DNA of 64,000 bases from Sycon ciliatum (Eukaryota > Porifera > Calcarea > Leucosolenida > Sycettidae): NCBI RefSeq assembly GCF_964019385.1, contig NC_088654.1, positions 20,633,108 through 20,697,107 on the forward strand, in the 5' to 3' direction. Below are positions 10,509-60,737 of this stretch, piece by piece (position 1 is the stretch's first letter; every line of letters begins with the position of its first letter). The notes under the pieces were generated by a model. The model searched no databases. It saw nothing but the letters and a program-made list of their open reading frames with translations, and was not told where the DNA came from. Made by a program: the position numbers and the translations under genes.

Positions 10509-10712
10509 CTGTGTATTTTATAACAAAAATATTATTGAAAACCCATAATCGATTTTCTTGTTCCTATCATCAGTGGGAAAAATAAGAAAATCGATCATGG
10601 GTTTTCAATAATATTTTTGTTATAAAATACACAGTAAATACATGTCAAACAAGTAACGTAGTTGCGTGATGTCTGCGGCCTTCATCCTATTCATAGCTAT
10701 ATTAAAATTATT
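10509..10712. repeat. PLE hairpin arm (right of Ngaro)
   Basis: 10509-10570 and 10573-10635 are inverted copies (CTGTGTATTTTATAAC...). 10636-10712 is the inverse of 5245-5332. Together they form a foldback PLE terminus with a degenerate hammerhead at its centre. Confidence 0.7.
10542..10577 (-). ncRNA. Degenerate hammerhead ribozyme
   Basis: Minus strand: stem I CCCA/UGGG, intact CUGAUGA, intact GAAA, stem III AAU/AUU, cleavage base A. Stem II (UAGGAACAA) lacks the G-C closing pair and has an A.A mismatch, so activity is doubtful. Confidence 0.45.
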
Positions 10713-10724
10713 ATAATAATAATT

Positions 10725-11549
10725 ACAACGGTGCGTTCGTTCACAGTGTTGAAGGACGTCCTGCCAACCCACCATTTGAGCCATCTCATTTATCAATTTG
10801 AATGCCGACAATGTGGTAGTCGGTATGTTGGCAGGACGCTTCCGAACGCATCAAGCAGCACGTCCCATTATCATTGTTGTCCCTGGCTGCCAGGTTAAAC
10901 AGGCCAAAGCGTGGGAGACCACGAAAACATCCGCTGCCTTTTTCTACACCTAGCACGGCTCACAATTCGGAAACAGAAACACCGACTACTTCCATGGAGA
11001 ACGAGCAGACTAATCTGGTTCCTCCCTCGGAAACCGGACCACGGCAAGGGAGGCCGCCGGACGGTCACTCCTCGACAAACCATGTTGCTACAACGGTAAG
11101 AGCGGAGGGGGAACAACTTGAAAACAGAGCAGAACCGAGGAGAAGCAAGAGACTAGCAGAGGCACGACTGAGACAAGTGGAGAACACAAGGCAAGGAGAC
11201 GCAGGAGGAAGCACAGGCACGGCACAGAACGAATCAAGGAGGGGGAAGCGGTGTCGCGAGGAGATGGAGACTGATGACGACGAATACGAGTGCGATGGGA
11301 TGGACGACGGCATTGGAATGGAGGTGGAGGATGAGAGTAGTGATGAGGAGGAGTTTGATGTTGACAAGAGGAAGTCTGCAGTGTACAAGCATTTGGTGTC
11401 CAGTCCAGAATGTCGTAAGGTGTTTGACGATTCCTGGTTTAGTGTTATTCGTTGCGCACGTTTCTTCAAGCAATTGCAGGTGTTGGAAGCTGTGTATATT
11501 CGTACTCGTGACCCTGTGCTATGTAAACAGAATAATAATAATAATAATT
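10725..11549 (+). pseudogene. PLE GIY-YIG endonuclease fragment
   Basis: 5'-truncated Penelope-like pol tail. It reads VRSFTVLKDVLPTHHLSHLIYQFECRQCGSRYVGRT in short segments of one frame, which is the first half of GIY-YIG. It then slips frame near 10840-10870 and continues as a 239-aa ORF (10874-11593) with an AT-hook (KRGRPRKHP), an acidic linker and the C-terminal half (SAVYKHLV..C, LEAVYIRTRD). Just after LCKQ the coding sequence is replaced by an (AAT)n tract read as Asn. It is closest to PLE copy 3. It is bounded by AAT/ATT repeats on both sides. Confidence 0.82.
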
Positions 11550-11705
11550 TTTTTCTTCAGACTTTTCCCGTTTGTCTCTTTCCCTCAAACTAGTGAAGAT
11601 TTTATGACTTGGGGCTCCCCGCGTGCTAGAGTGTACGTGAAGTGTGTGGGTACAGTGAGGGCTGCGTCCCACCCGCCTGTGTGGATTCACAGGAATTTTT
11701 TTTCA
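11549..11705 (+). repeat. Copy of the tRNA-like tandem repeat tail
   Basis: The CTTCAGACTTTTCCCGTTTG...GCTGCGTCCCACCCGCC segment is the reverse of sequence repeated at 30002-30790. It is flanked by AAT tracts on both sides. It has no gene. Confidence 0.6.
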
Positions 11706-11869
11706 ATAATAATAATAATTTTAGAATTGCAATCAACAGAACGAGCTGAACCGACATTTTCACAAAGGCTTTTATTGTATTAAAAAAAACGAGTGGATAC
11801 GAAGGCAGTGAAGAACATGGAAGAAAGAAAAAATGTGATATGGAAGAAATGATGAACAAAAAATTTGTA

Positions 11870-11905
11870 CTTCGAACTAGTTTTCGCACAACACTCCTCA
11901 GGAAG
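11870..11905 (-). ncRNA. Hammerhead ribozyme (PLE1, 3' arm)
   Basis: Stem I CUUC/GAAG, core CUGAGGA, stem II GUG-UUG-UGC, GAAA, stem III AAC/GUU, cleavage after UUC. All core residues match the CUGANGA...GAAA consensus. Short stem III is typical of PLE hammerheads. Confidence 0.85.
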
Positions 11906-12120
11906 CTACGTTGCACTAATGAAAAACAATCCAGAAAGATACTAATAAAAGAAATGGAGTGAGAAGAAACAACACCTATGAAAATGATAATCCTAGCACT
12001 AAGGTAATAACAGGAAAAACTGCGAAAGCACTTAACGAACTTGTAAGGACTACTAGTATACTGTGACACAAGATATGACACCATGGCCAACCAGAGCCAA
12101 ACAGACAGAACAAGCTGCTA

Positions 12121-14061
12121 CTAAAACAATTTCAAACGAATAATGCTGTCCTTCTGGACACACAGATTAGGCTTATGAATACGTTGACAAACAGCTTCTA
12201 ACACACTCAACTGCAACTTGTAACCATGACGAGCACGGCACAAAACAGAAAAAGAAGAATCAGAATAAACCTTACAGCAATCAGGACGAGATGCAAGATG
12301 CTTATACACTGATGACTTCCTACTAGAAAACACACGCTCGCACCCACTCTTACTCACACAATCATTCTCGCTCTCACACTCACACTCACCGGAATCACTG
12401 GACTCACTGGCCGAATCCTCCTTAACGACGTCCTGCCTCGGAGCAATCAGGTCCCGTCTCCTACCATCCCTCGTCTCACGTTCCTGTTGTGTATTCCGTT
12501 GGCTCGGAACTTCCGTACTGAAATAGGTCATGGTGTAATTAGCAGTTGTTCTTCTGGGTCTCGTTGATATTGAGGTAGGTATTGTTGTCGTCTCTGCCGG
12601 TGATGCAGCAAGCGATGCTGATGCAAACGTGTCTGCATGCAACACACGTGGCGTCGCCAAAGCCACATCCACCTCCGCTGGTGGAGGGAGTGACTTGGTC
12701 ATGGCCACGGGAGCCAATGGTGGACTTGTCGAGTGAGACGCTAGGTCCTGTGTTGGCGGAGGTAGTGGTTGTTTACGGGGTCTTCCCCGCGTGGGACGCT
12801 CCAGTTGTGCGCTACGTGGGATAATGTGTAAAGGAGTGTGTTGCTTGATGCGTTCGCTCATGTGCTGAACAGTCCTACAAACATACCGGCTAGCACAATT
12901 CCGGCATTCAAAGTTGTAGATTACATGACTTAAATGATGGGTTGGTAGGACGTCCTTCAACACCGTGAACGAACGCATCGTTGTGTAGACGGGTATGAAG
13001 TGTACCGCATAGTAGGTTTGTTTGATGATCGCACGAACTTCACGACTCACATTGTCAGACTTCTTGCCCTTCCATGGTAAGCACAAAAAGACAGGACAAC
13101 GAGCAGGCCCTATCAATTCATGTTTCGGCGTGGGGGCTGTAGACAACAGTTTTGCCAACATGTCGCCTGGGTATCCGTTTTTGGTGAAAACTGAACGGAG
13201 AAATTCGAGCTCACCACTGAGTTTACAAGGTGAACAGATCCGTTTGGCGCGATCCACGAGATTCTTTACTAAGTTGACTTTATAATTAGATGAACAGTAC
13301 GAGTCATAGGAAATGTATTGTCCGGTGAATGTCGGTTTACGATACACCGATGTTACGCTACCAAATTCGGTTTTCTCAACAAGTACGTCGAGGAAGGATA
13401 ACTTGCTTGACTGCTCGTGCTCACATGTGAAGCGGAGGGAAGGGTGGAGGCTGTTGAGAGCACCAAGAAAGACCTCGCTGTCTTCTATGGAATCAAAGTA
13501 TGTGAAAGAGTCATCAACGAAACGGAAATACAGACTCGGCCATAGAGGCGCATCAATCTTACACTCACAGTAACCGACAAAGACATTAGCTAACACGGGA
13601 CCCAACGGAGAGCCCATGGCTACTCCATCTATCTGCTTATACATCACGTCATTGAACGAAAACTCAACGCCAGTTGTGACTAACAACATCAAACGTCGAA
13701 AAGCACATTCAGGTAGCCACGGAGTGTCAACTTCGTCAACACGGTACAACACATCCGCGCAAATATCAATTGTCTCCTCCAGCGGTACGTTTGTGAACAA
13801 ACTCACTACATCGAACGAACACATATGTGAGTGAGTTGGAACAGGTCGGACCCGTAGCTTCTCTACGAAATCGAAACTATCTTTAACAGTGTGTTGGCAG
13901 TAGTGCTCCTCAACAACTTTCAACAACCTACACAACCACTTAGAGATTGAATATTGTGGCGAAGCTGTCATGGAGACGATTGGCCGGACAGGACATGTAG
14001 GCTTATGTATTTTTGGTAAACCATAAAGGCGAGGACGTATTGATCCGACCGGCTTCATCAA
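12121..14061 (-). CDS. PLE reverse transcriptase with split GIY-YIG endonuclease
   Basis: The open frame is 646 aa from the first ATG and continues upstream to about 14146, where the inverted arm begins. The N-terminal RT fingers are missing. It has YGLPKIHKPTCPVRPIVS, SFDVVSLFTNVP, GVAMGSPLGPVLAN, catalytic FVDD and SVYRKPTFTGQY, the Penelope RT signature. The first GIY-YIG half (YNFECRNCASRYVCRTVQH) has a Cys in place of the usual Gly in YVGRT. An AT-hook (RPTRGRPRKQP) and a ~180-aa Pro/Ser/acidic linker follow. The second half is SSVYKHLASRPDCC...FSVLCRARHGYKLQLSVLEAV..I.KPNLCVQK. It would nick DNA and prime reverse transcription. Loss of the 5' end makes this copy non-autonomous. Confidence 0.88.
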   Translation of the reverse strand: MMKPVGSIRPRLYGLPKIHKPTCPVRPIVSMTASPQYSISKWLCRLLKVVEEHYCQHTVKDSFDFVEKLRVRPVPTHSHMCSFDVVSLFTNVPLEETIDICADVLYRVDEVDTPWLPECAFRRLMLLVTTGVEFSFNDVMYKQIDGVAMGSPLGPVLANVFVGYCECKIDAPLWPSLYFRFVDDSFTYFDSIEDSEVFLGALNSLHPSLRFTCEHEQSSKLSFLDVLVEKTEFGSVTSVYRKPTFTGQYISYDSYCSSNYKVNLVKNLVDRAKRICSPCKLSGELEFLRSVFTKNGYPGDMLAKLLSTAPTPKHELIGPARCPVFLCLPWKGKKSDNVSREVRAIIKQTYYAVHFIPVYTTMRSFTVLKDVLPTHHLSHVIYNFECRNCASRYVCRTVQHMSERIKQHTPLHIIPRSAQLERPTRGRPRKQPLPPPTQDLASHSTSPPLAPVAMTKSLPPPAEVDVALATPRVLHADTFASASLAASPAETTTIPTSISTRPRRTTANYTMTYFSTEVPSQRNTQQERETRDGRRRDLIAPRQDVVKEDSASESSDSGECECESENDCVSKSGCERVFSSRKSSVYKHLASRPDCCKVYSDSSFSVLCRARHGYKLQLSVLEAVCQRIHKPNLCVQKDSIIRLKLF

Positions 14062-14385
14062 GTCAAATTCATGTGTAGAGATACTCTTGTCGGCTTTTAA
14101 TTTCTTTAGGTAATTGATTAGCTCTGCCTCTACCAGAAGGACAGCATTATTCGTTTGAAATTGTTTTAGTAGCAGCTTGTTCTGTCTGTTTGGCTGTGGT
14201 TGGCCATGGTGTCATATCTTGTGTCACAGTATACTAGTAGTCCTAACAAGTTCGTTAAGTGCTTTCGCAGTTTTTCCTGTTATTACCTTAGTGCTAGGAT
14301 TATCATTTTCATAGGTGTTGTTTCTTCTCACTCCATTTCTCTTTATTAGTATCTTTCTGGATTGTTTTTCATTAGTACAACGTAG

Positions 14386-14421
14386 CTTCCTGAGGAGTGT
14401 TGTGCGAAAACTAGTTCGAAG
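14386..14421 (+). ncRNA. Hammerhead ribozyme (PLE1, inverted 5' cap)
   Basis: Identical to the minus-strand ribozyme at 11870-11905 but on the plus strand. The inverted arms therefore place one hammerhead on each strand. Confidence 0.85.
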
Positions 14422-14596
14422 TACAAATTTTTTGTTCATCATTTCTTCCATATCACATTTTTTCTTTCTTCCATGTTCTTCACTGCCTTCGTATCCACTC
14501 GTTTTTTGAATACAATAAAAGCCTTTGTGAAAATGTCGGTTCAGCTCATTCTGTTGATTGCAATTCTAAAACTATTGTCGCCTCGACGCCTATTTA

Positions 14597-22894: not shown

Positions 22895-23297
22895 TCAGAA
22901 CTAAATATTGCAACATCATAATAATAAACGACATACATGTACTGTCCATTGGCATCAGTATTCCGAGTAAGATTTTCGTCGCTTGTGTGGTGTGTTTCTC
23001 CACCAATGAGCGTGTACTATGATTATTTATCGCTGTTCTCACACTTTACCATTTTAGCAGCTTGCATATGCCATTGATATTATGTGGAAAGCGCGCACTT
23101 GCGCCATTTCTGGTGTATAAGAATGATCATTCCTCCATTATCATCATTATCATCCTCTACTGATGAGCTCCGACAGGGAGCGAAACAGCTGTCTAGAGGC
23201 GTGGAGCAATATTATCTCTCAACGGAAGTGTCCTTGCTGGTGTCTGTATGGTTCGGCTGAAGAGCGCGTGGTTGTGATGAGTTGGGAATGCAATGAA
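22895..23297 (+). mobile_element. Short non-autonomous hammerhead repeat
   Basis: About 400 bp lying exactly between two (AAT)n tracts (22872-22894 and 23297-23314), without coding capacity. It carries a canonical hammerhead near its 3' side. It resembles a PLE terminal repeat inserted alone. Confidence 0.55.
23154..23199 (+). ncRNA. Hammerhead ribozyme
   Basis: Stem I CCUCUA/UAGAGG (6 bp), CUGAUGA, stem II GCUCC-GACA-GGGAGC, GAAA, stem III ACA/UGU, cleavage after GUC. Every core residue is canonical. Confidence 0.92.
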
Positions 23298-23422
23298 TAA
23301 TAATAATAATAATTTTTTAAAAGAGGTCGGAGGCGGATAATACTTTAAAACGAAGGTAAGTTATGGGTCGCAAATATCCACGCAAACACACATCCAGTCA
23401 TAATAAGGCACTTGTCATAAGT

Positions 23423-23456
23423 ATCCGAACGTCTACGGTCCCTTCTCATCAAGGAT
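23423..23456 (-). ncRNA. Inactivated hammerhead relic
   Basis: Inverted partner of 24639-24672. The second core block reads GUAG instead of GAAA, so cleavage is not expected. Confidence 0.4.
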
Positions 23457-23602
23457 TATACAGGGAATGGCTCAAGCTGGAAAGACTAAAGCGTAAAGAT
23501 AATTAGATAACAACACTCGTGACAAGGTGGAAAATTATCAAGTTTAGCACGACACAAAACTCGAAGGAAAATAATAATAGTGACAACAACATAGTGAGCA
23601 AA

Positions 23603-24397
23603 TTAAGTTACATTGTTACCACCTCGACGAGGAGTAACACCAAACAATTGTAGCGACAACACATTTTCTTTCTGTACGCAAAGTTCAGGATATAACTTAC
23701 GGATATACAAAGCTTCTAACACAGCCAAATGTAACGCACATCTACCACGTGACAATATTGAGAAAACATTATCACTGTACAACTCACGACAATTGGTATG
23801 GGCTGACAGATGTTGCTTGATTGACGAAGTGCGATTCTTAGCTCCATTGGGTGTTGTCTCCTCCAATGTCCCGTCATCTCGCCTCTTCGTGGCATCACCA
23901 CTATCTGTCTCTTCGCGTTTCCGCGGCCTTCCACGTTTCTTGACACTAACCGTTGGGTGCGCGATACCCGGTGTCCTTTCCGTTACGTCTCCTCCATTGC
24001 GGATTTCTATTGAGCTTCTTACTCCAACTTGTCCGGTGTCCGATATTGAGGTTAGTTTTCGCGGTCTACCACGTTTTCGAATATTGACTGTTGTTGTCAC
24101 TTCCGTTGTCGTTGTACGTTCGTCCTCATCAGTCCGTATTTTCACTTGGCTTCTCGTCACCCTTTCCGACGCCGACAGATCCTTTGTCAGTTTCGGTGGT
24201 TTACGTGTGGGTCCTTCACCATCTTTTATGCTGTTCTCAGCTGGCCCGTGTCCTACACACGCAGAGGAGGACGGGCATGCAGTCACATCTTCACGGGAAG
24301 AAGAAGATCCACCGATGGACTGGACAGCACATTTTGGAGGACGACCACGGCGAGGACGACAATCGCGCGCATCAAGCGGAACACAACTTAACGACAC
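23603..24397 (-). pseudogene. PLE endonuclease C-terminal fragment with three AT-hooks
   Basis: 264 aa with no RT and no first GIY-YIG half. It contains AT-hooks RRGRPPK, KRGRPRK and KRGRPRK separated by Ser/Thr/acidic linkers. The conserved C-terminal half follows (TSSIKQHLSAHTNCRELYSD, FSILSRGRCALHLAVLEALYI). The truncation point lies within the linker; upstream of it the sequence turns into the inverted cap. It belongs to a PLE family distinct from copies 1-3 (LFGVTPRRGGNN tail). Confidence 0.82.
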
Positions 24398-24638
24398 CTG
24401 AACTTTGCGTACAGAAAGAAAATGTGTTGTCGCTACAATTGTTTGGTGTTACTCCTCGTCGAGGTGGTAACAATGTAACTTAATTTGCTCACTATGTTGT
24501 TGTCACTATTATTATTTTCCTTCGAGTTTTGTGTCGTGCTAAACTTGATAATTTTCCACCTTGTCACGAGTGTTGTTATCTAATTATCTTTACGCTATAT
24601 AAGTTTTAGTCTTTCCAGCTTGAGCCATTCCCTGTATA

Positions 24639-24672
24639 ATCCTTGATGAGAAGGGACCGAAAACGTTCGGAT
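24639..24672 (+). ncRNA. Degenerate hammerhead ribozyme
   Basis: Stem I AUCC/GGAU, UUGAUGA (C3 to U), poor stem II (GAAGGGACC), GAAA, stem III AAC/GUU without spare loop, cleavage UUC. Activity is unlikely. Confidence 0.45.
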
Positions 24673-24750
24673 ACTTATGACAAGTGCCTTATTATGACTG
24701 GATGTGTGTTTGCGTGGATATTTGCGACCCATAACTTACCTTCGTTTTAA

Positions 24751-24781
<31 letters not shown>
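24751..24781. repeat. (AAT)n microsatellite
   Basis: About 10 units between the PLE fragment and the hammerhead palindrome. Confidence 0.9.
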
Positions 24782-24782
<1 letters not shown>

Positions 24783-24961
24783 GAAGTAGTGGTTGCGACT
24801 TCGGCGATGAATTGTCAGAAAGGTTTGCTCCCCACACCGGAGCTCGCGCTATTCCGCCGACTTTACTTGACACTTGACTGACTCACGACTGCCATCCAGA
24901 GCACACGAGAAGTCCATCGAACCTTCGACTCGGCAAACCTGTAAGAAAGCACCACTCCCTG

Positions 24962-25005
24962 CTCAATACACAGTGTTTCGGGGAATTCACCCCTCATCAG
25001 TTGAG
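24962..25005 (-). ncRNA. Hammerhead ribozyme (palindrome left arm)
   Basis: Stem I CUCAA/UUGAG, CUGAUGA, stem II GGGG/CCCC, GAAA, stem III ACA/UGU, cleavage after GUA. Canonical core. Confidence 0.9.
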
Positions 25006-25040
25006 CTTGAGTAGGCACAATCTTCCTCAGCCTACTCAAG

Positions 25041-25084
25041 CTCAACTGATGAGGGGTGAATTCCCCGAAACACTGTGTATTGAG
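25041..25084 (+). ncRNA. Hammerhead ribozyme (palindrome right arm)
   Basis: Exact inverse of 24962-25005. Confidence 0.9.
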
Positions 25085-25229
25085 CAGGGAGTGGTGCTTT
25101 CTTACAGGTTTGCCGAGTCGAAGGTTCGATGGACTTCTCGTGTGCTCTGGATGGCAGTCGTGAGTCAGTCAAGTGTCAAGTAAAGTCGGCGGAATAGCGC
25201 GAGCTCCGGTGTGGGGAGCAAACCTTTCT

Positions 25230-25248
25230 AATAATAATAATAATAATT
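25230..25248. repeat. (AAT)n microsatellite bounding PLE2
   Basis: Directly adjoins the inverted arm of PLE copy 2. Confidence 0.85.
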
Positions 25249-25393
25249 TTAATATGGCAATAAGTAGGACGAGCTGAAGCGACATGTGGACTACTTTATT
25301 AACAATGTAAGCGATGGAGACGATGCAAGAAACAACCTAAAGGGTAAGGAAAAATACATGTAAGAAGAAAAAGGGCAATGGAAAAAAAAAGAT

Positions 25394-25431
25394 GATTCGA
25401 ACAAGTTTTCGTACAACACTCTTCAGGAATC
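25394..25431 (-). ncRNA. Hammerhead ribozyme (PLE2, 3' arm)
   Basis: Stem I GAUUC/GAAUC, CUGAAGA, stem II GUG-UUG-UAC, GAAA, stem III AAC/GUU, cleavage after UUC. Same fold as PLE1 with compensatory stem changes. Confidence 0.87.
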
Positions 25432-25713
25432 ACCGTTGTACTAAAGAACAAAATGAGAACAAAGGAAATAATATAGCAATCAAGGTAGGGTGACACGATA
25501 CAATGACAGCACTAGAATATCGAGGTGCGATTTCTCACAAAAGTGTGCAGAAAACAAGGGTATACAAGTAAGAACTAAGCGTGACAAGTGTGTATCAGCA
25601 ACAAAAACAAAAAAGTGAGAACGAATGATAATAATAACAATAATAAACAAGAAGGTGACAAAACACATTTAGGCACAAGTGGCAACAACGTTGCCACACT
25701 ACACAACAGAACA

Positions 25714-27816: not shown

Positions 27817-27993
27817 GGATACTATTGGTCTAACAGGGCATGTAGGTTTATGAATTTTAGGAAGGCCATAGAGTCTAGGACGAAGGGTACCAGTCGGTTT
27901 GATGCGATCGAATTCATGTTTTGAATTCGTGTCACCCTACCTTGATTGCTATATTATTTCCTTTGTTCTCATTTTGTTCTTTAGTACAACGGT

Positions 27994-28031
27994 GATTCCT
28001 GAAGAGTGTTGTACGAAAACTTGTTCGAATC
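27994..28031 (+). ncRNA. Hammerhead ribozyme (PLE2, inverted cap)
   Basis: Inverse copy of 25394-25431, core intact. Confidence 0.87.
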
Positions 28032-28203
28032 ATCTTTTTTTTTCCATTGCCCTTTTTCTTCTTACATGTATTTTTCCTTACCCTTTAGGTTGTTTCTTGC
28101 ATCGTCTCCATCGCTTACATTGTTAATAAAGTAGTCCACATGTCGCTTCAGCTCGTCCTACTTATTGCCATATTAAAATTATTGTCTCCTCGTCGAATTT
28201 TTA

Positions 28204-28229
28204 AATAATAATAATAATAATAATAATAC
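28204..28229. repeat. (AAT)n microsatellite
   Basis: Separates PLE2 from the next palindrome. Confidence 0.88.
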
Positions 28230-28412
28230 GAAGTAGTGGTTGCGACTTCGGCGATAATTTGTAAGAAAGGGTTTGCTCCCCACACCGGAGCTCGCGCTAT
28301 TCCGCCGACTTTACTTGACACTTGAGTAAAGTCGGCGGAATAGCGCGAGCTCCGGTGTGGGGAGCAAACCCTTTCTTACAAATTATCGCCGAAGTCGCAA
28401 CCACTACTTCGT
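28228..28412. repeat. Palindrome related to 24819-25228
   Basis: Arms 28228-28314 and 28326-28412 are inverted copies with an 11-bp loop (TTGACACTTGA). This is the outer part of the hammerhead palindrome family without the ribozymes. Confidence 0.8.
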
Positions 28413-28664
28413 ACTGTTGTGCCCAGCGCGGGCTTGCGACTAGTTGGTTTGGAGGTGACAGCGTTGCGAATGACCGAGGGTCCTCGACGTCTGTCTCACC
28501 GTCCAGGAGCGACACTGACTCACGCTGCTATCTGGTGTTCACGAGGTGTTTATCGCGCTGGAAGCGGAGCGTCTCTGTAAGTTTGTATCCCTGGTGATGT
28601 TTGTGCCTGGAGAGCACTATATAAGTGGTGCTCTTCAGGCACAATCTTCCTCAGCCTACTCAAG

Positions 28665-28708
28665 CTCAACTGATGAGGGGTGAATTCCCCGAAACACTGT
28701 GTATTGAG
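28665..28708 (+). ncRNA. Hammerhead ribozyme
   Basis: Same sequence as 25041-25084. It lies in a single-arm copy of the palindrome family (about 28640-28835). Confidence 0.9.
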
Positions 28709-29058
28709 CATGGAGTGGTGCTTTCTTGCAGGTTTGCCGAGTCGAAGGTTCGATGGACTTCTCGTGTGCTCTGGATGGCAGTCGTGAGTCAGTCAAGTGT
28801 CAAGTAAAGTCGGCGGAATAGCGCGAGCTCCGGTGTCCGGCGCTGACAGGTTTTTCACTCCAAAGGCAGCTCACAACACGTGCCACACATACTGATGGCA
28901 CTTGGGTCTTTTTCCCTCCCCCAGGGGACCAACCACGGTCAGTTTCTGGAAACTACCAGAGGTGAAAGAAAGTGATTAAATTTGGAAAGGATTGGGAGAA
29001 CTTCATATTCAAAGGATCAGTCGGGGAAGTGAACTGCCTGAAAAGAGAAAAAAACGCC

Positions 29059-29431: not shown

Positions 29432-29507
29432 GGCTTTTTTTTCTCTGTTCAGGCAGTTCACTTCCCCGACTGATCCTTTGAATTTAAAGTTCTCCCAATC
29501 CTTTCCA

Positions 29508-42325: not shown

Positions 42326-42733
42326 CTCTCAACTGGTTATGCATCTCTATATATCTAGCATTTGGCGGCTCTATTCAGAGTCATTGCCGGCTCCATGTGG
42401 AGGCATTGGCGGCTCCATGCGGAGTCATTCGGCGGCTCCATGCAGAGTAATTGGCAGCTCCATGCGGAGTAATTCGGCGGCTCCATGCAGAGTCATTCGC
42501 TGGCTCCATGCGGAGTCATTCGCCGGCTCCATGCGGAGCATTCGCCGGCTCCATGCGGAGTCATTTGCCGGCTCCATGCGGAGTCATTTGCCGGCTCCAT
42601 GCGGAGTTATTCGCCTGCTCCAAGCGGAGTCATTTGCTGGCTCAGCTGTGAGCCATTATACCAGTTGCTCGAATCGGCACTCCCAGCTTAATGCAAAACT
42701 CGGTTGCTCTGTTGTGAGGTGGGGGGATGCTAA
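42326..42733 (+). repeat. Split repeat B1 with ~22-bp minisatellite
   Basis: Contains about a dozen units of GGCTCCATGCGGAGTCATTC. Copied at 42997-43405 with slight unit differences. Confidence 0.85.
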
Positions 42734-42996: not shown

Positions 42997-43405
42997 CTCT
43001 CAACTGGTTATGCATCTCTATATATCTAGCATTTGGCGGCTCTATTCAGAGTCACTGCCGGCTCCATGCGGAGGCATTGGCGGCTCCATGCGGAGTCATT
43101 CGGCGGCTCCATGCGGAGTAATTGGCAGCTCCATGCGGAGTAATTCGGCGGCTCCATGCGGAGTCATTCGCTGGCTCCATGCAGAGTCATTCGCCGGCTC
43201 CATGCGGAGTCATTCGCCGGCTCCATGCGGAGTCATTTGCCGGCTCCATGCGGAGTCATTTGCCGGCTCCATGCGGAGTCATTCGCCTGCTCCAAGCGGA
43301 GTCATTTGCTGGCTCAGCTGCGAGCCATTATACCAGTTGCTCGAATCGGCACTCCCAGCTTAATGCAAAACTCGGTTGCTCTGTTGTGAGGTGGGGGGAT
43401 GCTAA
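42997..43405 (+). repeat. Split repeat B2 with minisatellite
   Basis: Copy of B1, ends GGATGCTAA at 43405. Confidence 0.85.
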
Positions 43406-46808: not shown

Positions 46809-48163
46809 TCACTTTGTTCCACTATGGCTCCCTCTGTGTCTTAAAAATACAAAATGTGGGGAATAGATCTCCATGTGGCCGTGGCTGTTGAATTTATTTT
46901 CCTGAGAACGAGAAAGTATTCTGTCTCTGCTGCTATGTCCTTTGTTGATGTGATTTCGACGTGAGCTGCGGGTCATTCGCGTTGTTTTTAGACTTACAAG
47001 TGCGTCGGACGCAATGTCAAACCCTTTGTGGGCCATAATCACATCGCCTTTGTCCAGCAGCTTCAGTAGTTCGCATCTCCTTACCAACTCCTTGTCAGAC
47101 GTTCGTCCGCCATCCAGCTGCGACACAAACGACAGAGCACCACCAGGTGTTGTTCCTGCATGCGCTTTAACAGTGTTACGTTGCTTGTATTCCGACCATG
47201 TGGCAGCTTGAGTAGTGGGGCTCTTTGGCTTTTCTATCGGAATCTCCAACGCATCGATGATAATCCGTGTCCGTGGATACATTTCACGGAACGACAGTGA
47301 CATTAGCTCATCCACTTGGGATCTGCTCGGCAAGATCGGGATTTGGCGAAGTGCATTGGCAGCCAACGGAATCCAATGGCGGATAATCCTGGATATTGTT
47401 GGTTGGGAGACACCAGTTAGCCGTGCCAGCTCCTCTTTCGGATAATCCTTCCACACCTTCACCATTGCAATAAAAAGCAGTCTTCCAGTGGAAGGATTGG
47501 TGCAGTACCTCTTGCTTGGGTGGCAGAACGGGTGGACAAAACAAGTTTGAACATCTCCTCAAACTGTCCGAATGTTCTGAACCCAGTATACCAGCGAATG
47601 TTTTTGTTCGATGTGAACTGCCGTGCCGTAAAACGCTGCCTTTCAAGCTGAGCTTCGAGGATCGTGTTTTGGTCTTTCAATAGCTCTAGCTGTGATTTCA
47701 GGTCCAAGATCTCATCCCTCAGCCGCTGATTCTCTTCGACAACGTCCACCTCTCCAGTATCCTCGGTGCTGGCCACTTCTTCCTCATCCACCGTCATACT
47801 TTCTTCCTCGGCCTCACTCGCTTTCTTGGAGGTCAGTGTTTAACGGTCCACCGCTGGGATGGTCCAAGCAAATACAGAGGGAACTTCATCGTCATTCTCG
47901 CGTTGCAGGGCTGGGAAATGTGCTCCACATACACGCACATCGTTTGTTGCAGCCACCATTAAATTTTGTTTTTGAACAGCATCTTTCCACGATTTGATTA
48001 ATTTTCTTTGCCGTTTAGCTAGATGTGGATCAGCGCTTTCGGGCAGGGATTTGGGGAACTTGGCGAACGGCAACGTCCTGCACACGCTGCAAGCGCCCCT
48101 ACAGCTGACACGCTTTGCCGTATTCCCACATTGTGGGAGAAACCAGCGACCGCTTGGGAACAA
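46809..48163 (-). pseudogene. THAP-domain DDE transposase (ISL2EU/Harbinger-like), broken
   Basis: Three minus-strand pieces. First (48163-47840): C2CH THAP-like finger, CSVCRTLPFAKFPKSL with the IKSWKDAV helix and VCGAHFP. Second (47797-47459): a coiled coil (EENQRLRDEILDLKSQLELLKDQ in short segments) and IRWYTGFRTFGQFEEMF. Third (47465-46809): helix-turn-helix (EELARLTGVSQPTISRI), IIDALEIPIEKP with the first catalytic Asp, SEYKQRNTVKAHAGTTPGG, and GDVIMAHKGFDI where the family usually has an Asp (A-D-R-G-F). Frameshifts occur between pieces and after the KGF motif. Dead element; THAP plus DDE_Tnp_4-type order is as in ISL2EU. Confidence 0.78.
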
Positions 48164-49237: not shown

Positions 49238-49281
49238 CTGCCCTGATGAGTCCACAAAGGACGAAACAGTTCTGTCCGCAG
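49238..49281 (+). ncRNA. Hammerhead ribozyme (dimer unit 1)
   Basis: Stem I CUGCC/CGCAG (4 of 5 pairs), CUGAUGA, stem II GUCC-ACAAA-GGAC, GAAA, stem III ACAG/CUGU, cleavage after GUC. Confidence 0.85.
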
Positions 49282-49468: not shown

Positions 49469-49512
49469 CTGCGCTGATGAGTCCTCAAAGGACGAAACAG
49501 TTCTGTCTGCAG
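49469..49512 (+). ncRNA. Hammerhead ribozyme (dimer unit 2)
   Basis: Stem I CUGCG/UGCAG (one wobble), CUGAUGA, stem II GUCC-UCAAA-GGAC, GAAA, stem III ACAG/CUGU, cleavage after GUC. Confidence 0.9.
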
Positions 49513-49799: not shown

Positions 49800-50225
49800 T
49801 TGTGCGAGTGCTATCCCGAGCATTATGTTAGCATTACCAAAGCATAGACTGGATGTGTATTATAGGAGGCCCAAGTTGCTGAAGATCAGTAGTCATTGCT
49901 GATAACGTGCAGAAGAACTAAATCCACAGCTTCTTTTGCCGTCGGACAGGATGCATATTATAGGAGACTTTAAAGTTATGTGATGTGCTCCACAGGTAAC
50001 GATGAATTTGGCCGTCAGCAACAGTTAAGAACAAGCACACTGTCAGGTGGCCGTTTTAAAGATTGCTGAAAGGGTTTTTCTACGGTTAATATGGCCGAAT
50101 AGTACCTCCCTCTGGCATAGGTCCTCGTCTTCCTATTTCTCTCTGATTGTTAATTTTTTCGAACTTGTAATTACCGGTACATTTACATATACTTACTCTT
50201 GACTCTTTGTTGCCATCTTCATTAG
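49800..50225. other. Stretch without recognisable gene
   Basis: No recognised motif. Confidence 0.35.
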
Positions 50226-50339
50226 GTCCATCAAATAGTAGTAATAGGTTTTTCATTTGACCCGACGAGACCACACGACGCTTGCAGACCACAGCACGAA
50301 CAGTTCACCAGCCACACTCCACGAAAGCAAGTAGTGTTA

Positions 50340-50394
50340 CTCCTGACAAGTCTTGTTTCGTTCCATAAAGTTGACGGGGAACTCATCAGAGGAG
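50340..50394 (-). ncRNA. Hammerhead ribozyme (175-bp unit 1)
   Basis: Stem I CUCCU/AGGAG, CUGAUGA, stem II GUUCC/GGAAC with a 13-nt loop, GAAA, stem III ACAAG/CUUGU, cleavage after GUC. Larger stem III than the PLE types. Confidence 0.92.
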
Positions 50395-50514
50395 AAGCAG
50401 TTGTTGAATGAAGGGGTTAAGCTGAATAATGCTATTTTATAGAGAAGACACGACGCTTGCAGACCACAGCACGAACAGTTCACCAGCCACACTCCACGAA
50501 AGCAAGTAGTGTTA

Positions 50515-50569
50515 CTCCTGACAAGTCTTGTTTCGTTCCATAAAGTTGACGGGGAACTCATCAGAGGAG
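50515..50569 (-). ncRNA. Hammerhead ribozyme (175-bp unit 2)
   Basis: Identical to 50340-50394. Confidence 0.92.
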
Positions 50570-50915
50570 AAGCAGTTGTTGAATGAAGGGGTTAAGCTGA
50601 ATAATGCTATTTTATAGAGAAGATACCGGCGCAGGGTGTAAACACTCAACTAACTCATATCATGTGACAAATCAGTACTCTTTGTGACGTGTAAATTAGC
50701 GCAATCTATTCCTGTGTACCTCTCCTTCTCATTGTGATTGATTTAGCACTTGTGATTGTTGTGTTTGGTAGGGTTCATAACACCTCCATTCTGCACTATT
50801 CCTTTTGTGTTGATTTGTCACATAATATGAGTTAGTTGAGTGTTTACACCCTGCGCCGGTATCTTCTCTATAAAATAGCATTATTCAGCTTAACCCCTTC
50901 ATTCAACAACTGCTT

Positions 50916-50970
50916 CTCCTCTGATGAGTTCCCCGTCAACTTTATGGAACGAAACAAGACTTGTCAGGAG
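50916..50970 (+). ncRNA. Hammerhead ribozyme (inverted arm)
   Basis: Inverse copy of 50340-50394. Confidence 0.92.
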
Positions 50971-51099
50971 TAACACTCCTTGCTTTCGTGGAGTGTGGCT
51001 GGTGAACTGTTCGTGCTGTGGTCTGCAAGCGTCGTGTGGTCTCGTCGGGTCAAATGAAAAACCTATTATTACTCTTGACTGTTTTCTCATTTTCTCAAG

Positions 51100-52785: not shown

Positions 52786-52828
52786 TATAGAGTTAGAAGG
52801 TGGTAAAACAGCAAAAGGAAGAAGGTTA

Positions 52829-52949
52829 GGAATGGGTTTGCTCCGACACTGGAGCTTGCGCTATTCCGCCGACAACTTGACACTTGAGTCAAGTGTCAAG
52901 GCATCGGCGGAATAGCGCGAGCTCCAGTGTGGGAGCAAACCCATTCCTA
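52829..52949. repeat. Palindrome of the 24819-25228 family
   Basis: AATGGGTTTGCTCC...CTTGACACTTGA facing GTCAAGTGTCAAGG...GGAGCAAACCCATT. No ribozyme in this copy. Confidence 0.8.
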
Positions 52950-53050
52950 AACAAAATCATCGCCGAAGTCGCAACCTCTATTTCGTAAAGAAGAAGATAG
53001 CTAAAGTATTAGCAATAAGGAAAACAAATTCTGCTGTCATCGCCACACTA

Positions 53051-53226: not shown

Positions 53227-53462
53227 AGAAACTAATTGTAACGCTAGAACTGTGTAGTGCGCGTCGATTATTTACATAGCTAAAGTAAACAGCAAAAAAT
53301 GCGTGACCTATACACATAGCAATAAATAATATAGATGCAAGTGCGAGAAACCTCAATAAGCGTGACATGTAGTGCGACAACAAGAGACAAGCACTGGATA
53401 TAACTAACGAGGTTTTATCGACCTACCTAACAACCTAAGTGTGAATTTAATTTGCTTCTGCT

Positions 53463-53583
53463 TAGGTTGGGTTTCTTTGTGTGGATGTATATGGCTTCAA
53501 AAACATCCAGCAATCTAGCACTGCGTACACGTGACACAATAAAAAAACAATCATCTGAATACACAGCACGACAATCAGGATGC
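53463..53583 (-). pseudogene. PLE endonuclease C-terminal scrap
   Basis: Minus strand: CRAVYSDDCFFIVS, VRSARLLDVFEAIYIHTKKP. The conserved PLE end, same family as 44103-44178, truncated both sides. Confidence 0.7.
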
Positions 53584-53589
53584 CCAAAC

Positions 53590-54130
53590 AACACTACATG
53601 TCACACTTATTGAGTTTTCTCACACTTGCACCTTTGTGTCATTATTGCTATGCGTATAGGTCACGCAGTTTCGCTGTTTACTTTAGCTATCTTCTTCTTT
53701 GCGCTGTTTTACAGTATACGAAAAACATTACTTTGGTCTATGCACTGTGCACGTTCTACTTCACCTAACATACAACCTTACGAAGTTTTATGAATGTTAA
53801 AGTAGGAGACAACAAACACACCTGATCTCCATGTGTTTTCTATCATGCGATCTGTGTGTGTGTGTTTTTTTACTACGTTCACATAACCAGCTCGAAAAGA
53901 ATAAGGAAAGACAATGGTACGGAGACTAGCACAAATGTGACAACTAATGAGCAGGCGCTGTACCGAGACGCAGCAGTGATGGCGGGGCATTGATGACTCT
54001 GCCGACCTGAGGTCTCGGCGTCACTGCCAAAAACACGCACCAAAAACAAAGAAGAAGAAAAAAAGAAGCTGTACAGGTCAGGAAGATGCAAAAACCCAAG
54101 GCTTAACACGAGCGAGTGTAGGGGGGAAAC
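53590..54130. other. Stretch without recognisable gene
   Basis: Contains GT/T runs near 53848. No gene-like signal. Confidence 0.35.
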
Positions 54131-54289: not shown

Positions 54290-55180
54290 CCTCCACCGCC
54301 GCGGCCACCTCCACCGCGGCCACGCACGAACTTTGAACTATCTACTATCTATTATACTGTCAGTATGATACATGTACAGATAGTTGACACAGAGATTGTC
54401 AAAAGCCACGGACAAAATACGACTACTGGCTTACAGTTCTGTTATTGATCCAGAGTCACGAAAGAGGTTTGCTGGTAGGGTTATGAGAAAATTATGATGT
54501 AATGCCCTGGAGAAAGTACATGTTCAGAAAAGAATGAAAAAACAGTGAGCACAGGACAAGCATATTTCACTAAGGGTCGTTCTTGGTGTACTTTACTGAG
54601 CCCGGCAATCTGTGTATGAAGTCAATAAAGTAAGTAATGGTGACAAAATACCAATACCTCCAGACAGACTACACCCTACATCAGCGATAGAACATTGCTG
54701 GTTTTAAGCCATATTCTCTGGTCCGAGTTCTGGTAATGACAGTCTATTTTACTTCAGACGTATCCAGTTTCCAACTCTATTGAACTTATGAAAACCTCCA
54801 AGCACTAGCGCATTCTGTAGAATCCAACTCAGTCACGGTGTTTTCGTTAAAGCCAGGTACTAAGATAATATAAAATTCATATTATGATCTACAATAATAT
54901 ATTTGTAAGCTACTAAAATGCCCTCATATGCGGCAACATGACAATCTCATCCACACAGAACATCGAGGACCCACTTGAATCAGGGTCGTCACCCATTGCA
55001 CCAAGGTACTTGGTCCGCGTCAGCAATATTGTCGCATATCTTTTGACAATTTGAACTTAGACTTTGAACAACAACGCATGCACTTGAGGTGATAAAACTT
55101 GGTATGATGGAAGGTAAGTTATAGAATGTCAACTAGCAATGATTTTGGTCCTCCTCGTCGCTTCTTTTGGTACTGGTGTC
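54290..55180. other. Stretch without recognisable gene
   Basis: 54690-54770 has a badly decayed tRNA-like motif (TGGTCCGAGTTCTGGTAATG) related to 29855-29926. Otherwise nothing recognised. Confidence 0.4.
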
Positions 55181-55194: not shown

Positions 55195-55385
55195 GCACAA
55201 TCTTCTTCAGCCTACTCAAGCTCAACTGATGAGGGGTGAATTCCCCGAAACACTGTGTATTGAGCAGGGAGTGGTGCTTCCTTTCAGGTTTGCCGAGCGA
55301 AAGGTGCGACGTGCTCCTTGTGTGCTTCGGATGGCAGTCTTGAGTCAGTCAAGTGTCAAGTTCGGCAAGAAGCGTGTGCTCCTCA
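55195..55385 (+). repeat. Single-arm copy of the hammerhead palindrome family
   Basis: GGCACAATCTTCTTCAGCC through GTCAAGTGTCAAG matches 25015-25190 with more divergence downstream. Confidence 0.8.
55221..55264 (+). ncRNA. Hammerhead ribozyme
   Basis: Same as 25041-25084, all core and stem positions kept. Confidence 0.9.
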
Positions 55386-55564
55386 TTGGAGCAACCATCT
55401 GCAGAAAGATATGCGACAGTATTGATGACGTGGACCAAGTAGCTCAATACAAAAAATATTGGTCAGGAGATTGGTCTTTTTGTCTTTAGCACCTGTCAAC
55501 TGACAACCGCTCTATTCAGTTTCTATTCACAATCGCCGCATGCGCTGGATGAAGAATGAATTTT

Positions 55565-57780: not shown

Positions 57781-58171
57781 TGTGTCACGCCTGGCGCTAT
57801 CCCGTATCTGTCCCGTACCGTGCCATCAAGAGAATGAGTATGTATTATAGCATTATGTATAGCACTAAAGCGGCCAGCACCAAGAAATGAGAGACTGTAG
57901 AGGCCTGGCATATGTTATGTTAACTTTATTTTACTTCACCATAGATACAGGTATGGCTGCCTTCTTGCTGTGGATCATAAAGTGCCATAGCTCCTAGGCT
58001 ATGATGAAAAATAAAAATAGATTCATCATCATCATCTGCGCTGCCGAAAAAATAATAATACTAAAATAAAAAATGTAAAAAGGCGACGTGGAGACAATAA
58101 TCTTAATAATGCAATGAATATAACTAAATGCGCACTCATATCACAACCATGGGGACGAATCATGTACATGT

Positions 58172-58209
58172 ATTCCAGAACGTTTTCTTGTCACAATTAT
58201 CAATGGAAT
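58172..58209 (-). ncRNA. Degenerate hammerhead (PLE3, 3' arm)
   Basis: Stem I AUUCCA/UGGAAU perfect, stem II UUG-UGA-CAA, GAAA intact, cleavage UUC. The core reads UUGAUAA instead of CUGAUGA (C3 and G8 changed), so it is probably inactive. Confidence 0.5.
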
Positions 58210-58415
58210 TCGTGACTAAAGAGAATGATGAAACTACAATAGGATTTATACACTTGGAGTGGAACAGCGAGGATACAAGCATAGTAAGAAAAATAGCACA
58301 AACCTAGGAACAATGTGCACAGGTAATAACTATAGGTGAGGTGAGAAATGATAGGAAATTCAGCAAGTGCAGTGTGACAATGGACATGCATGTGCAAGTG
58401 TGTGTGAGTGCGAAT

Positions 58416-60443
58416 TTACTGGAATAGCGTAAGTGCGGTGACATTTTCTTTTTGTTTACAAAGATTTGGATCACGAATGCGAATGTAGACTGCTTCTAGA
58501 ACTTTCAACTGCTTGAAACTACTTGCAGAACGAACAACACTAAACCAAGAATCATCATAACTTTCACGACACACGGGGTTAGACAACAAATGCAATTTAA
58601 TTGCCGATGTATTCTTCTTCTTCTCACCGCCTCTGCCTTCCCTTGGTTTCTGACCACCACCGTCCTTCACACCATCTGCACCATCATCGTCATCATCGTC
58701 ATCGTCCTCTTCATCATCGCTGCCACCTTCACCTGTCGTCAGCTCTCCCAGCAACTGACCACCGGGTTCATCATCGTCACTGCACATGTCGCTTCCACAC
58801 TCCTCCTCCAGCTGCCGTCGCGTTCTCTTCCTGACCGGTCTTCCCTTGCCATTGCCAAACACCTCACAGTCGTCAACCCTTCCGCTGGCATCATCCATAT
58901 CCGGAGAGTTTCGTTGCATCTTTCCAGTCACCTCTGCAAACCGAGCTGCCAGCCGTTTGCTCCTTCTCAGCTTTGGTGAGTTGCGGTTGTCTGCGTCCGG
59001 CGTACCGGTACTCGCTGATAATGAAGATAAGACACAGTGTTCGTCTTTGTTTACATTAATGTTTGTTACCGATTTCTGCGTGCTGTGTTGGTTTTTCCGA
59101 GACACCGTTTGTGGAGCAGAAGCCTCTGCCGGAACGGACACTGGAGTCGGGTGCTTACGTGGTCGGCCACGCTTTGGTCGGGAGGACCTAGCCGCCTGTG
59201 ACAATAGTGAGAGCGGCACGTGTTGTTTGATACGTTCGGACAGATGTTGAAGGGTCCTACCAACATACCGACTACCACATTGTCGGCATTCAAAGTAGTA
59301 AATGAGGTGACTCAATTGTAGGGTTGGTTGGACATCCTTCAACATCGTGAACGAACGGATCGTAGTGAACACGGTAACCACATTGGTGGCAAAGTAGGTT
59401 TTCTCCACTAGGGATTTCACCACACGGGCCGTGTCCTTCGATTCGTTCCCTTTCCAGGGCAAGCAAAGAAATACGCGGCACGGCAACGGTCCGATAGCTC
59501 GTTCCTTAACAACAGGTGTAGTTGTTAGAAGTTTGTTGAGGAGCTGCTGCGGGTAGCCATTCTTCACAAATACGGAGCGTAGAAAATCAAGTTCCTGTTG
59601 TAGCTTTGTGGGTGAACATATGCGTTGTGCCCTATTTACAAGGTTACGAACTAAGTTTGACTTGTACTGGGAAGAGCAGAACGAGTCAAACATCATGTAC
59701 TGCCCGGTGAAAGTGGGTTTACGGTATACTGTAGTCAATACACCAGTCTGGGTCTTTTCGACTAACACATCCAGAAACGATAGCTTATTGGACTCTTCAT
59801 GTTCACACGTAAATCTCAGTGCAGGATGGATTGTATTCAGTTTCAGCAGAAAGGCGTCAGCGTCTGCTCTCGAATCAAAGTACGTGAAGGAGTCATCCAC
59901 AAACCTGACGTACAATTCCGGCCACTTATCTATCTTCGATTCACAGTACCCAACAAACACATTGGCTAGGACCGGACCCAATGGAGAACCCATAGCCACG
60001 CCATCCGTCTGTTTATACATGTTGTCGTCAAATGAAAACTCCACACCACTCGTAACCATCAACATCAAGCGGCGAAAAGCCGCTTCGGACAGCCATGGTA
60101 CATCTTTTATTTCCTTGTTGTGGTACAGTGTTTCTACACAGATATTGATTGTCTCGGATAATGGTACGTTTGTAAACAGACTGACAACATCAAAGGAACA
60201 CATGTGCGCAGAAGATGGAACTGGGTTCTCATGTAAGATTTCAACAAACTGGAAGGTGTCTTTGACGTTGTGCTTACAGTAGAAATCCAGCACTGGCTGG
60301 ATCATCATACACAGCCATTTGGATATTCTGTATTCCGCTGAGCCAGTCATGGAGAGTATCGGACGTAGCGGGCAAGATTGCTTGTGAATTTTTGGCAAGC
60401 CCAAAAGTTCTAGAAGCAGTCTACATTCGCATTCGTGATCCAA
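58416..60443 (-). CDS. PLE reverse transcriptase with split GIY-YIG endonuclease
   Basis: 675 aa; the first ~12 residues come from the inverted cap, then LGLPKIHKQSCPLRPILS. RT: SFDVVSLFTNVP (83-94), GVAMGSPLGPVLAN (148-161), catalytic FVDD (181-184), VYRKPTFTGQY (239-249). First GIY-YIG half 379-409: YYFECRQCGSRYVGRTLQHL..RIKQH. AT-hook PKRGRPRKHP (423-432). Linker of ~180 aa ending in a strongly acidic run of Asp/Glu. Second half ~612-675: SAIKLHLLSNPVCRESYDDS, FKQLKVLEAVYIRIRDP, LCKQKENVTALTLF. N-terminal RT is lost by truncation. No stops or shifts in the rest. It would nick target DNA and extend from it. Confidence 0.9.
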   Translation of the reverse strand: MDHECECRLLLELLGLPKIHKQSCPLRPILSMTGSAEYRISKWLCMMIQPVLDFYCKHNVKDTFQFVEILHENPVPSSAHMCSFDVVSLFTNVPLSETINICVETLYHNKEIKDVPWLSEAAFRRLMLMVTSGVEFSFDDNMYKQTDGVAMGSPLGPVLANVFVGYCESKIDKWPELYVRFVDDSFTYFDSRADADAFLLKLNTIHPALRFTCEHEESNKLSFLDVLVEKTQTGVLTTVYRKPTFTGQYMMFDSFCSSQYKSNLVRNLVNRAQRICSPTKLQQELDFLRSVFVKNGYPQQLLNKLLTTTPVVKERAIGPLPCRVFLCLPWKGNESKDTARVVKSLVEKTYFATNVVTVFTTIRSFTMLKDVQPTLQLSHLIYYFECRQCGSRYVGRTLQHLSERIKQHVPLSLLSQAARSSRPKRGRPRKHPTPVSVPAEASAPQTVSRKNQHSTQKSVTNINVNKDEHCVLSSLSASTGTPDADNRNSPKLRRSKRLAARFAEVTGKMQRNSPDMDDASGRVDDCEVFGNGKGRPVRKRTRRQLEEECGSDMCSDDDEPGGQLLGELTTGEGGSDDEEDDDDDDDDGADGVKDGGGQKPREGRGGEKKKNTSAIKLHLLSNPVCRESYDDSWFSVVRSASSFKQLKVLEAVYIRIRDPNLCKQKENVTALTLFQ

Positions 60444-60699
60444 ATCTTTGTAAACAAAAAGAAAATGTCACCACACTTACGCTATTCCAGTAAATTCGCA
60501 CTCACACACACTTGCACATGCATGTCCATTGTCACACTGCACTTGCTGAATTTCCTATCATTTCTCACCTCACCTATAGTTATTACCTGTGCACATTGTT
60601 CCTAGGTTTGTGCTATTTTTCTTACTATGCTTGTATCCTCGCTGTTCCACTCCAAGTGTATAAATCCTATTGTAGTTTCATCATTCTCTTTAGTCACGA

Positions 60700-60737
60700 A
60701 TTCCATTGATAATTGTGACAAGAAAACGTTCTGGAAT
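60700..60737 (+). ncRNA. Degenerate hammerhead (PLE3, inverted cap)
   Basis: Inverse copy of 58172-58209 with the same two core changes. Confidence 0.5.

Follow-up and report, generated by a model that had tools for sequence, protein, structure and literature searches.

Hammerhead motifs in a 64-kb Sycon ciliatum locus suggest insertion of short retrozyme-like elements by Penelope-type machinery

Results

Hammerhead motifs of the locus

The 64-kb stretch of Sycon ciliatum DNA analyzed here (the window; all positions are coordinates within it, and searches were confined to it unless stated otherwise) is rich in type I hammerhead ribozyme motifs. Some of these motifs lie in Penelope-like elements (PLEs). 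Others lie in the GUCC family or in short elements in which no PLE sequence was detected and which we refer to as passengers: the GGGG family, an insertion built of a 175-bp unit (R175) and the 23154 element. The individual hammerheads, with the searches that support them, are as follows.

11869-11906 (-): PLE1 left arm; minimal, with palindromic stem III; strict, relaxed and widest scans
14385-14422 (+): PLE1 right arm; strict, relaxed and widest scans
23154-23199 (+): hammerhead 23154; strict and widest scans
24961-25006 (-): GGGG family, left arm of the GGGG palindrome; scans and covariance model R2
25040-25085 (+): GGGG family, right arm of the GGGG palindrome; scans and R2
25391-25434 (-): PLE2 left arm; strict, relaxed and widest scans
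27991-28034 (+): PLE2 right arm; strict, relaxed and widest scans
28664-28709 (+): GGGG family; scans and R2
41892-41933 (-): GUCC family; scans and sub-threshold Rfam match
49238-49281 (+): GUCC family; relaxed scan
49469-49512 (+): GUCC family, 231 bp beyond the 49238 copy; scans
50340-50394 (-): 175-bp unit; widest scan, R2 and sub-threshold Rfam match
50515-50569 (-): 175-bp unit; widest scan, R2 and sub-threshold Rfam match
50916-50970 (+): 175-bp unit; widest scan and R2
55220-55265 (+): GGGG family, in the GG55 insertion; strict and widest scans
58172-58209 (-): variant with core UUGAUAA (U3-A8), PLE3 left arm; widest scan
60700-60737 (+): variant with core UUGAUAA (U3-A8), PLE3 right arm; widest scan

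Scanning with a strict type I pattern returned 11 sites, and a relaxed scan returned 14 rows, 12 of them with an intact core and two (2365 and 4327) with one core change. The three copies in the 175-bp unit were missed by both scans because their loop II is 13 nt long. The widest scan, which accepted loops as long as 14 nt and any pair at positions 3 and 8, gave 16 sites, namely 14 of the 15 hammerheads listed in the preliminary description of this DNA and the two U3-A8 variants in PLE3. As motifs, the 15 hammerheads stand: 14 satisfy the type I pattern strictly (a core of CUGANGA, GAAA and NUH, three helices, stem I open), and the single exception, 49238, has a C-C mismatch at the innermost stem I pair. 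As controls we simulated the window with a first-order Markov model instead of shuffling it exactly. The strict scan found no sites in 10 of these simulations and the widest none in 40; under the relaxed rules, one simulation in eight had a single site scoring at least 8 (9.2), and none reached 10.

A few other candidates were considered. CTGATGA at 10567 was rejected as a chance match, as it sits in a hairpin (10503-10639) that resembles a miniature inverted-repeat transposable element; sites 44214 and 53078 were rejected on inspection by eye. A hammerhead-like site at 4326-4376 (-), flanked by direct repeats (3783-4147 and 4392-4755), scores 21.5 bits with model R2; its core is CTGATAA, in which a C3/A8 mismatch remains.

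The 15 sites are not independent, because most of them are arms of inverted insertions. According to repeat mapping and arm alignments, the insertions PLE1, PLE2, the GGGG palindrome and R175 are inverted, with their hammerheads facing outward; the arms of two insertions are 100% identical. Instead of the 15 separate ribozymes counted initially, the sites by our own count derive from about nine insertion events: PLE1 (two sites), PLE2 (two), the GGGG palindrome (two), 28664, 55220, 23154, 41892, 49238 together with 49469, and R175 (three).

Penelope-like elements and their one-arm tails

The PLE insertions and their open reading frames (ORFs) are the following.

5236-10714: PLE6; inverted ends of about 80 bp, tail on the left only, another element between the ends
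11714-14596: PLE1 insertion; arms 11714-12157 and 14133-14576 (437/443), right-arm tail, AAT runs on both sides
12121-14211 (-): PLE1 ORF, reverse transcriptase; 5'-truncated relative to P0001
23314-24751: PLE4 insertion; arms 23344-23689 and 24397-24751 (344/346 aligned), left-arm tail
25242-28203: PLE2 insertion; arms 25242-25498 and 27927-28183 (257/257), right-arm tail, AAT runs on both sides
25714-27936 (-): PLE2 ORF, reverse transcriptase with a weak GIY-YIG match; 96% identical to P0001
58077-60806: PLE3 insertion; arms 58103-58505 and 60404-60806 (402/403), left-arm tail
58416-60467 (-): PLE3 ORF, RVT_1

The proposed linkage between hammerheads and PLEs was borne out for two hammerhead pairs, those of PLE1 and PLE2. 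Similarity to P0001 (1015 aa, 50 cluster members) and the RVT_1 domain identify the ORFs of PLE1-3 as PLE reverse transcriptases. The PLE2 ORF corresponds to P0001 without its first 279 residues, and among the at least 120 relatives listed for PLE2 there is one in Sycon ciliatum (67% over 59%). The reverse transcriptase of PLE4 was recognized by its C-terminal part only, and PLE6 is known here from its ends alone. Pfam matches to GIY-YIG were weak and below the cut-off in PLE2 (E 0.017) and PLE3 (E 0.0039), with none for PLE1; the homolog P0080 carries PF01541. Between the PLE6 ends, at 5332-10508, lies an element with split direct repeats, a SAP-domain ORF and a reverse transcriptase, which we take to be DIRS/Ngaro-like.

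In three PLE families the minimal hammerhead is placed after the ORF and before a stretch that has one of two end sites. The longer version of this stretch, with the tail, reads MSVQLILLIAILKLLSPRRLFK in PLE1, MSLQLVLLIAILKLLSPRRIFK in PLE2 and similarly in PLE3 and PLE6. The translation of the tail, MS..L...IAIL.LLSPRR(L/I)F, resembles the N-termini of related proteins, such as MSVPLSLFLAVVFFLSPRRLFKYF in P0016; the PLE4 tail matches as well, without an open ATG-led frame. The tail is present on exactly one arm in all five PLE insertions with both ends read (PLE1, 2, 3, 4 and 6), a count that leaves out PLE5 (53276-53690) and PLE fragments near 10.7, 44-46 and 48 kb. The distances from the cleavage site to the two ends are 154/179 in PLE1 and 152/177 in PLE2, comparable to 150/186 in the GGGG family.

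The two PLE3 hammerheads (58172 and 60700) have UUGAUAA in place of CUGANGA, with GAA, the stems and NUH intact. By position they are likely to be among the sites described previously as relics, yet they are not simply decayed, since both changes together preserve the Watson-Crick 3-8 pair as a compensated U3-A8. As the PLE3 arms are identical at 402 of 403 positions, the sequence suggests that this element moved recently with its U3-A8 core. PLE4, by reading, has a hammerhead-like core TTGATGA (UUGAUGA) with a poor stem II in both arms. In the PLE hammerhead of Anolis, the exchange C3G/G8C partly restores cleavage (PMC11167929). No paper on a natural U3-A8 hammerhead core turned up in a limited, partial full-text literature search, which does not settle the matter. 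Nearly identical PLE3 and PLE4 arms with altered cores would bear on whether PLEs need the ribozyme for their movement.

Passenger elements with PLE-style ends

The passenger insertions are as follows.

22895-23295 (401 bp): 23154 element, between two AAT runs
24782-25229: GGGG palindrome; arms 24817-25016 and 25030-25229 (200/200), 13-nt center, 36-nt tail on the left arm only, AAT runs on both sides
28227-28413: pal28, short GGGG-family palindrome without a hammerhead; arms 89/89, AAT run on the left
50205-51068: R175 insertion; inverted arms (225/227) with two units on the left and one on the right, 37-nt tail on the left arm only
52826-52950: pal52, a more diverged GGGG-family palindrome without a hammerhead; arms 57/62, 36-nt right-arm tail beyond 52950
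55007-55043 and 55405-55441: short inverted ends (34/37) of the GG55 insertion, which holds hammerhead 55220

A one-arm tail is found in three of the five inverted GGGG-family and R175 insertions (the GGGG palindrome, pal52 and R175). Moreover, the two alternative 3' ends of the GGGG family, 36 nt apart, recur in two separate palindromes, the GGGG palindrome and pal52. The R175 insertion has a 12-bp duplication, TTACTCTTGACT, on either side (50193 and 51069), which occurs nowhere else on the + strand; by chance, seven of ~3000 random pairs of 74-nt stretches share at least 12 bases. Small non-coding units with tandem type I hammerheads, a feature of metazoan retrozymes, are represented by R175, with its 175-bp unit present twice, and by the GUCC family, with its 231-bp spacing. 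In the GGGG family only inverted or single copies and no tandem hammerhead units were found in the window, and we therefore term it retrozyme-like only.

Element ends at (AAT)n runs

AAT runs of at least 12 nt occur 15 times in the window and never in 20 Markov simulations. Between 22.9 and 29.5 kb they alternate with elements in the order AAT, 23154 element, AAT, PLE4, AAT, GGGG palindrome, AAT, PLE2, AAT, a composite of pal28, a GGGG copy and tRNA units, AAT. Of 20 element ends, twelve are no more than 6 nt away from such a run, against 0.8% of random positions and none of 51 other repeat ends; both sets of ends were placed by hand once the pattern had been noticed, so that a formal probability for the association should not be relied on. 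The 20 ends exclude those of PLE5, PLE6 and pal52; among the tRNA units, they exclude the left end of the 306-bp one and the right end of the 281-bp one. Judging from the sequence, many elements placed end to end in (AAT)n runs would explain the hammerhead density. Repeated insertion at such runs would be the better explanation of the density that was initially called striking.

The region 28980-30841 contains tRNA-bearing units (ARAGORN calls Ser-TGA, and others Pyl-CTA) in inverted pairs (210/215 and 131/138), together with a 281-bp tandem array of about three copies, interleaved with AAT runs. These units look as if they had been moved by the same machinery.

Covariance models, base pairing and predicted folds

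Covariance models, put forward in the preliminary description as a check on the motifs, gave a divided answer. None of the 15 sites reached the Rfam hammerhead gathering cut-off (34 bits), which is a limit for membership and no measure of ribozyme activity. The best sub-threshold score was 33.0 bits at 41891; others were 23.4 at 23142 (HH9), 23.2 at 49238, 22.1 at 49469 and 19.0 for two of the three 175-bp copies. At 24930-25460, the GGGG pair and the left PLE2 copy were unmatched by any Rfam hammerhead model at E<=1. On the other hand, model R2, trained on 23154, 41892, 49238 and 49469 with the structure stated explicitly, recovered all seven left-out copies, three of the 175-bp unit at E 2.8e-8 and four of the GGGG family at E 2.9e-5. 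With R2 the PLE hammerheads were at background (PLE2 at E 2.4, PLE3 at E 3.1, PLE1 unlisted up to E 10), so that what supports the PLE motifs is their pattern, their position and covariation.

Eight distinct hammerhead sequences were aligned by hand to count paired positions. Positions 1-5 of stem I are paired in 39 of 40 cells, with three to five pair types per position, and position 6 in only three of the eight sequences. Stem II is paired in every cell present; in stem III, positions 1-3 are paired in 24 of 24 cells and position 4 in seven of eight. Since the sites were partly chosen for pairing, the variety of pair types weighs more than the pairing percentage. The hand alignment, R2 and the widest scan agree on the earlier claim that stem bases vary across families yet stay paired. 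What needs revision is the reading of stem III, as several of these helices are unable to close as hairpins: in the PLE-type and 23154-type hammerheads stem III is palindromic with a 'loop' of 0-2 nt, which suits dimers. In predicted folds the 23154 dimer adopts the hammerhead, and the PLE3 monomer forms stem I and part of stem II. A search for relatives in viral_contigs and genome_contigs found none.

Discussion

We consider it probable (roughly 0.65) that the hammerheads of this locus are components of PLEs and of short, retrozyme-like, non-autonomous elements that PLE-type machinery has inserted. The motifs, inverted arms, one-arm tails, AAT flanks and the PLE tail coding for an N-terminus are seen in the sequence itself; double priming, trans-mobilization and RNA cleavage are inferred and might be combined as follows. 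The enzyme would nick an AT-rich target, in this locus often an (AAT)n run, on both strands. Each side would then prime reverse transcription on the 3' portion of an element RNA, beginning at either of two start sites that are 25-37 nt apart and lie 75-190 nt past the hammerhead. Head-to-head joining of the two cDNAs would yield an inverted pair whose hammerheads point outward and of which one arm bears a tail. On each side of the insert an (AAT)n run would be left that could be hit again, allowing elements to accumulate. The hammerhead may trim or circularize the element RNA; in the PLE types it would probably do so as a dimer. A more specific version of this scheme, to which we assign somewhat less than even odds, is that the GGGG and 175-bp passengers were integrated in trans by Penelope proteins through both-strand priming, leaving head-to-head pairs with a one-arm tail, and that PLE3 stayed mobile with its compensated core.

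Published work lends these steps biochemical and structural precedents. The purified PLE protein of Anolis cuts and extends both strands, prefers 5'-ATT-3' and starts inside its own RNA, the stretch between its two start sites being the tail (PMC11167929). Rotifer PLEs often have inverted terminal repeats with an optional 31-bp tail on one of them and insert at simple AT-rich targets; one of these PLEs trans-mobilized a host gene (PMC3846280).

Several observations weigh against this explanation, among them the late setting of the AAT-associated ends and the Rfam scores below the cut-off. No 12-nt AAT run adjoins PLE3, R175, GG55, the right end of pal28 or the 281-bp tRNA unit. The ends of pal28 (with the tail on both arms) and of GG55 match on both arms, and in the 23154 element neither inverted arms nor a tail was found. 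When the post-hammerhead stretches of GGGG, GG55, R175 and 23154 were compared with those of PLE1-4 against shuffle controls, none of the 16 pairs showed convincing similarity, and hence no helper PLE can be named; only PLE3-23154 exceeded the 95% shuffle level (20 vs 19), staying under the shuffle maximum of 21. In the same test PLE4 was unlike PLE1-3 too, and GGGG-23154 scored 22 against a shuffle maximum of 21. The R175 tail is, by reading, open from an ATG, and R175 therefore might be the end of an unseen PLE. In the palindromic copies the antisense arm is able to pair with the ribozyme, and hairpin models fit at 24930-25460; the lowest-energy folds of PLE1 and PLE2, as monomer or dimer, and of the 175-bp unit monomer are not hammerhead-shaped. 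As to the literature, the authors of the rotifer study report no evidence that one PLE family mobilizes another, and they attribute head-to-head copies to self-priming on an antisense template instead of double priming (PMC3846280). Finally, work on the Anolis PLE argues against a required role of cleavage: its hammerhead mutants insert normally in vitro, the hammerhead does not cleave unless protein is present, and RNA-seq revealed no ends at the cleavage site (PMC11167929).

How the inverted insertions arose can be explained in other ways. The GGGG and R175 insertions might be solo pLTRs (terminal repeats) from additional PLE families not seen here, moved by their own enzyme and thus possessing ordinary PLE ends. 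Solo pLTRs have been reported (PMC3846280), the open R175 tail is like that of real PLE pLTRs, the cleavage-to-end distances of the GGGG family resemble those of PLE1 and PLE2, and PLE4 demonstrates that PLE ends can differ from those of PLE1-3. We nevertheless regard this as unlikely: a motif scan finds no LSPRR-type N-terminus in GGGG or R175, neither of the two ATGs that lie between hammerhead and tail in GGGG begins a frame that stays open (by reading), R175 has a tandem unit like small retrozymes, and both are unlike the post-hammerhead regions of PLE1-4. Slightly less credible still is that head-to-head copies result from self-priming on one template (antisense RNA in the case of rotifer PLEs) rather than from priming on both nicked strands. 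That model was proposed from palindromes at inverted junctions (PMC3846280), and the centers here are short, 13 nt in the GGGG palindrome; however, the arms of one insertion stop at different 3' start sites, which two priming events explain simply and which is why we prefer double priming, and extension of both strands has been seen with purified PLE protein (PMC11167929). The near-perfect palindromes, whose centers are very short, also look like fold-back elements, but an origin of the inverted pairs by later palindromic rearrangement or as fold-back DNA transposons, unrelated to reverse transcription, is very improbable, given that the arm ends differ yet fall at recurrent 3' sites, that R175 has its 12-bp duplication outside unequal arms, and that the start of the element's coding sequence lies in the PLE arms.

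The motifs themselves and their density may likewise be read differently. If hammerheads were genuine only where covariance models support them (11 sites), the minimal PLE sites, like the U3-A8 variant, would be inactive look-alikes, in line with the background R2 scores of PLE2 and PLE3, the lack of a listed PLE1 hit and the poor folding of PLE1 and PLE2 on their own. We judge this improbable, as the minimal sites occupy the same place between ORF and tail in three PLE families and show the full pattern that had no match in 40 simulations, and as PLEs are generally reported to carry minimal motifs (PMC7761336 and PMC6155905). The density, for its part, could be the plain genome average of the host, considering that thousands of minimal hammerheads have been reported in many animal genomes (PMC7761336); the clustering of many elements around AAT runs in the window weighs against this explanation, which we consider rather unlikely.

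PLE hammerheads, their linkage to PLEs, inverted PLE ends and tails are already known; the new feature is PLE-style ends on hammerhead passengers. Endonuclease-containing PLEs with minimal type I hammerheads were reportedly described by Cervera and de la Pena in 2014 and by Lunse in 2017. The PLEs of this locus resemble such elements (PMC11167929 and PMC3846280) in having a PLE reverse transcriptase, here with a weak, sub-threshold GIY-YIG match in PLE2 and PLE3, inverted terminal repeats, a one-arm tail coding for the ORF start, AT-rich targets and a minimal hammerhead near the element end. They differ in forming a bead-string of many insertions at (AAT)n runs and in the U3-A8 pair that replaces C3-G8 in PLE3. 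The passengers share with metazoan non-long-terminal-repeat retrozymes (PMC7229834) small non-coding type I hammerhead units, in tandem in R175 and as a 231-bp pair at 49.2-49.5 kb. However, tandem copies are described there, and the term 'inverted' is absent from that paper, whereas here the units form inverted pairs that face outward and have alternative 3' ends like those of PLEs. In Adineta vaga, a PLE-mobilized host sequence similarly combines foreign sequence with PLE-style ends and a target duplication, but the passenger lies between PLE pLTRs (PMC3846280), whereas no PLE sequence was detected in the passengers of our window. A partial full-text literature search, which lacked key older papers, turned up no hammerhead passengers in which one-arm tails of PLE style are combined with two recurrent 3' ends.

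The grounds given for the published proposal that PLEs mobilize animal retrozymes are shared ribozymes, copies in tandem and the co-occurrence of the two (PMC7229834 and PMC7761336). To this proposal the PLE-style ends of hammerhead passengers add structural support, not proof. Trans-integration of the passengers, if true, would be a physical record of retrozyme spread. Two fixed 3' ends 36 nt apart, a one-arm tail and AT-rich targets make up a signature that could be counted in any genome and reconstituted in vitro.

Other repeats of the window

Several further repeats were noted. A LINE-type (long interspersed nuclear element) ORF at 822-3635 (-) is 99% identical to a protein encoded on a 946-kb contig, and 46809-47558 (-) is a fragment of a DDE_Tnp_4 transposase. 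A 23-bp tandem array occurs twice (42359-42643 and 43030-43315) inside a larger duplication. Four copies of a short conserved repeat (family D17) lie at 520, 15188, 51507 and 57717 and have GGCCCTGAGCTTCCAAGCTC in common.

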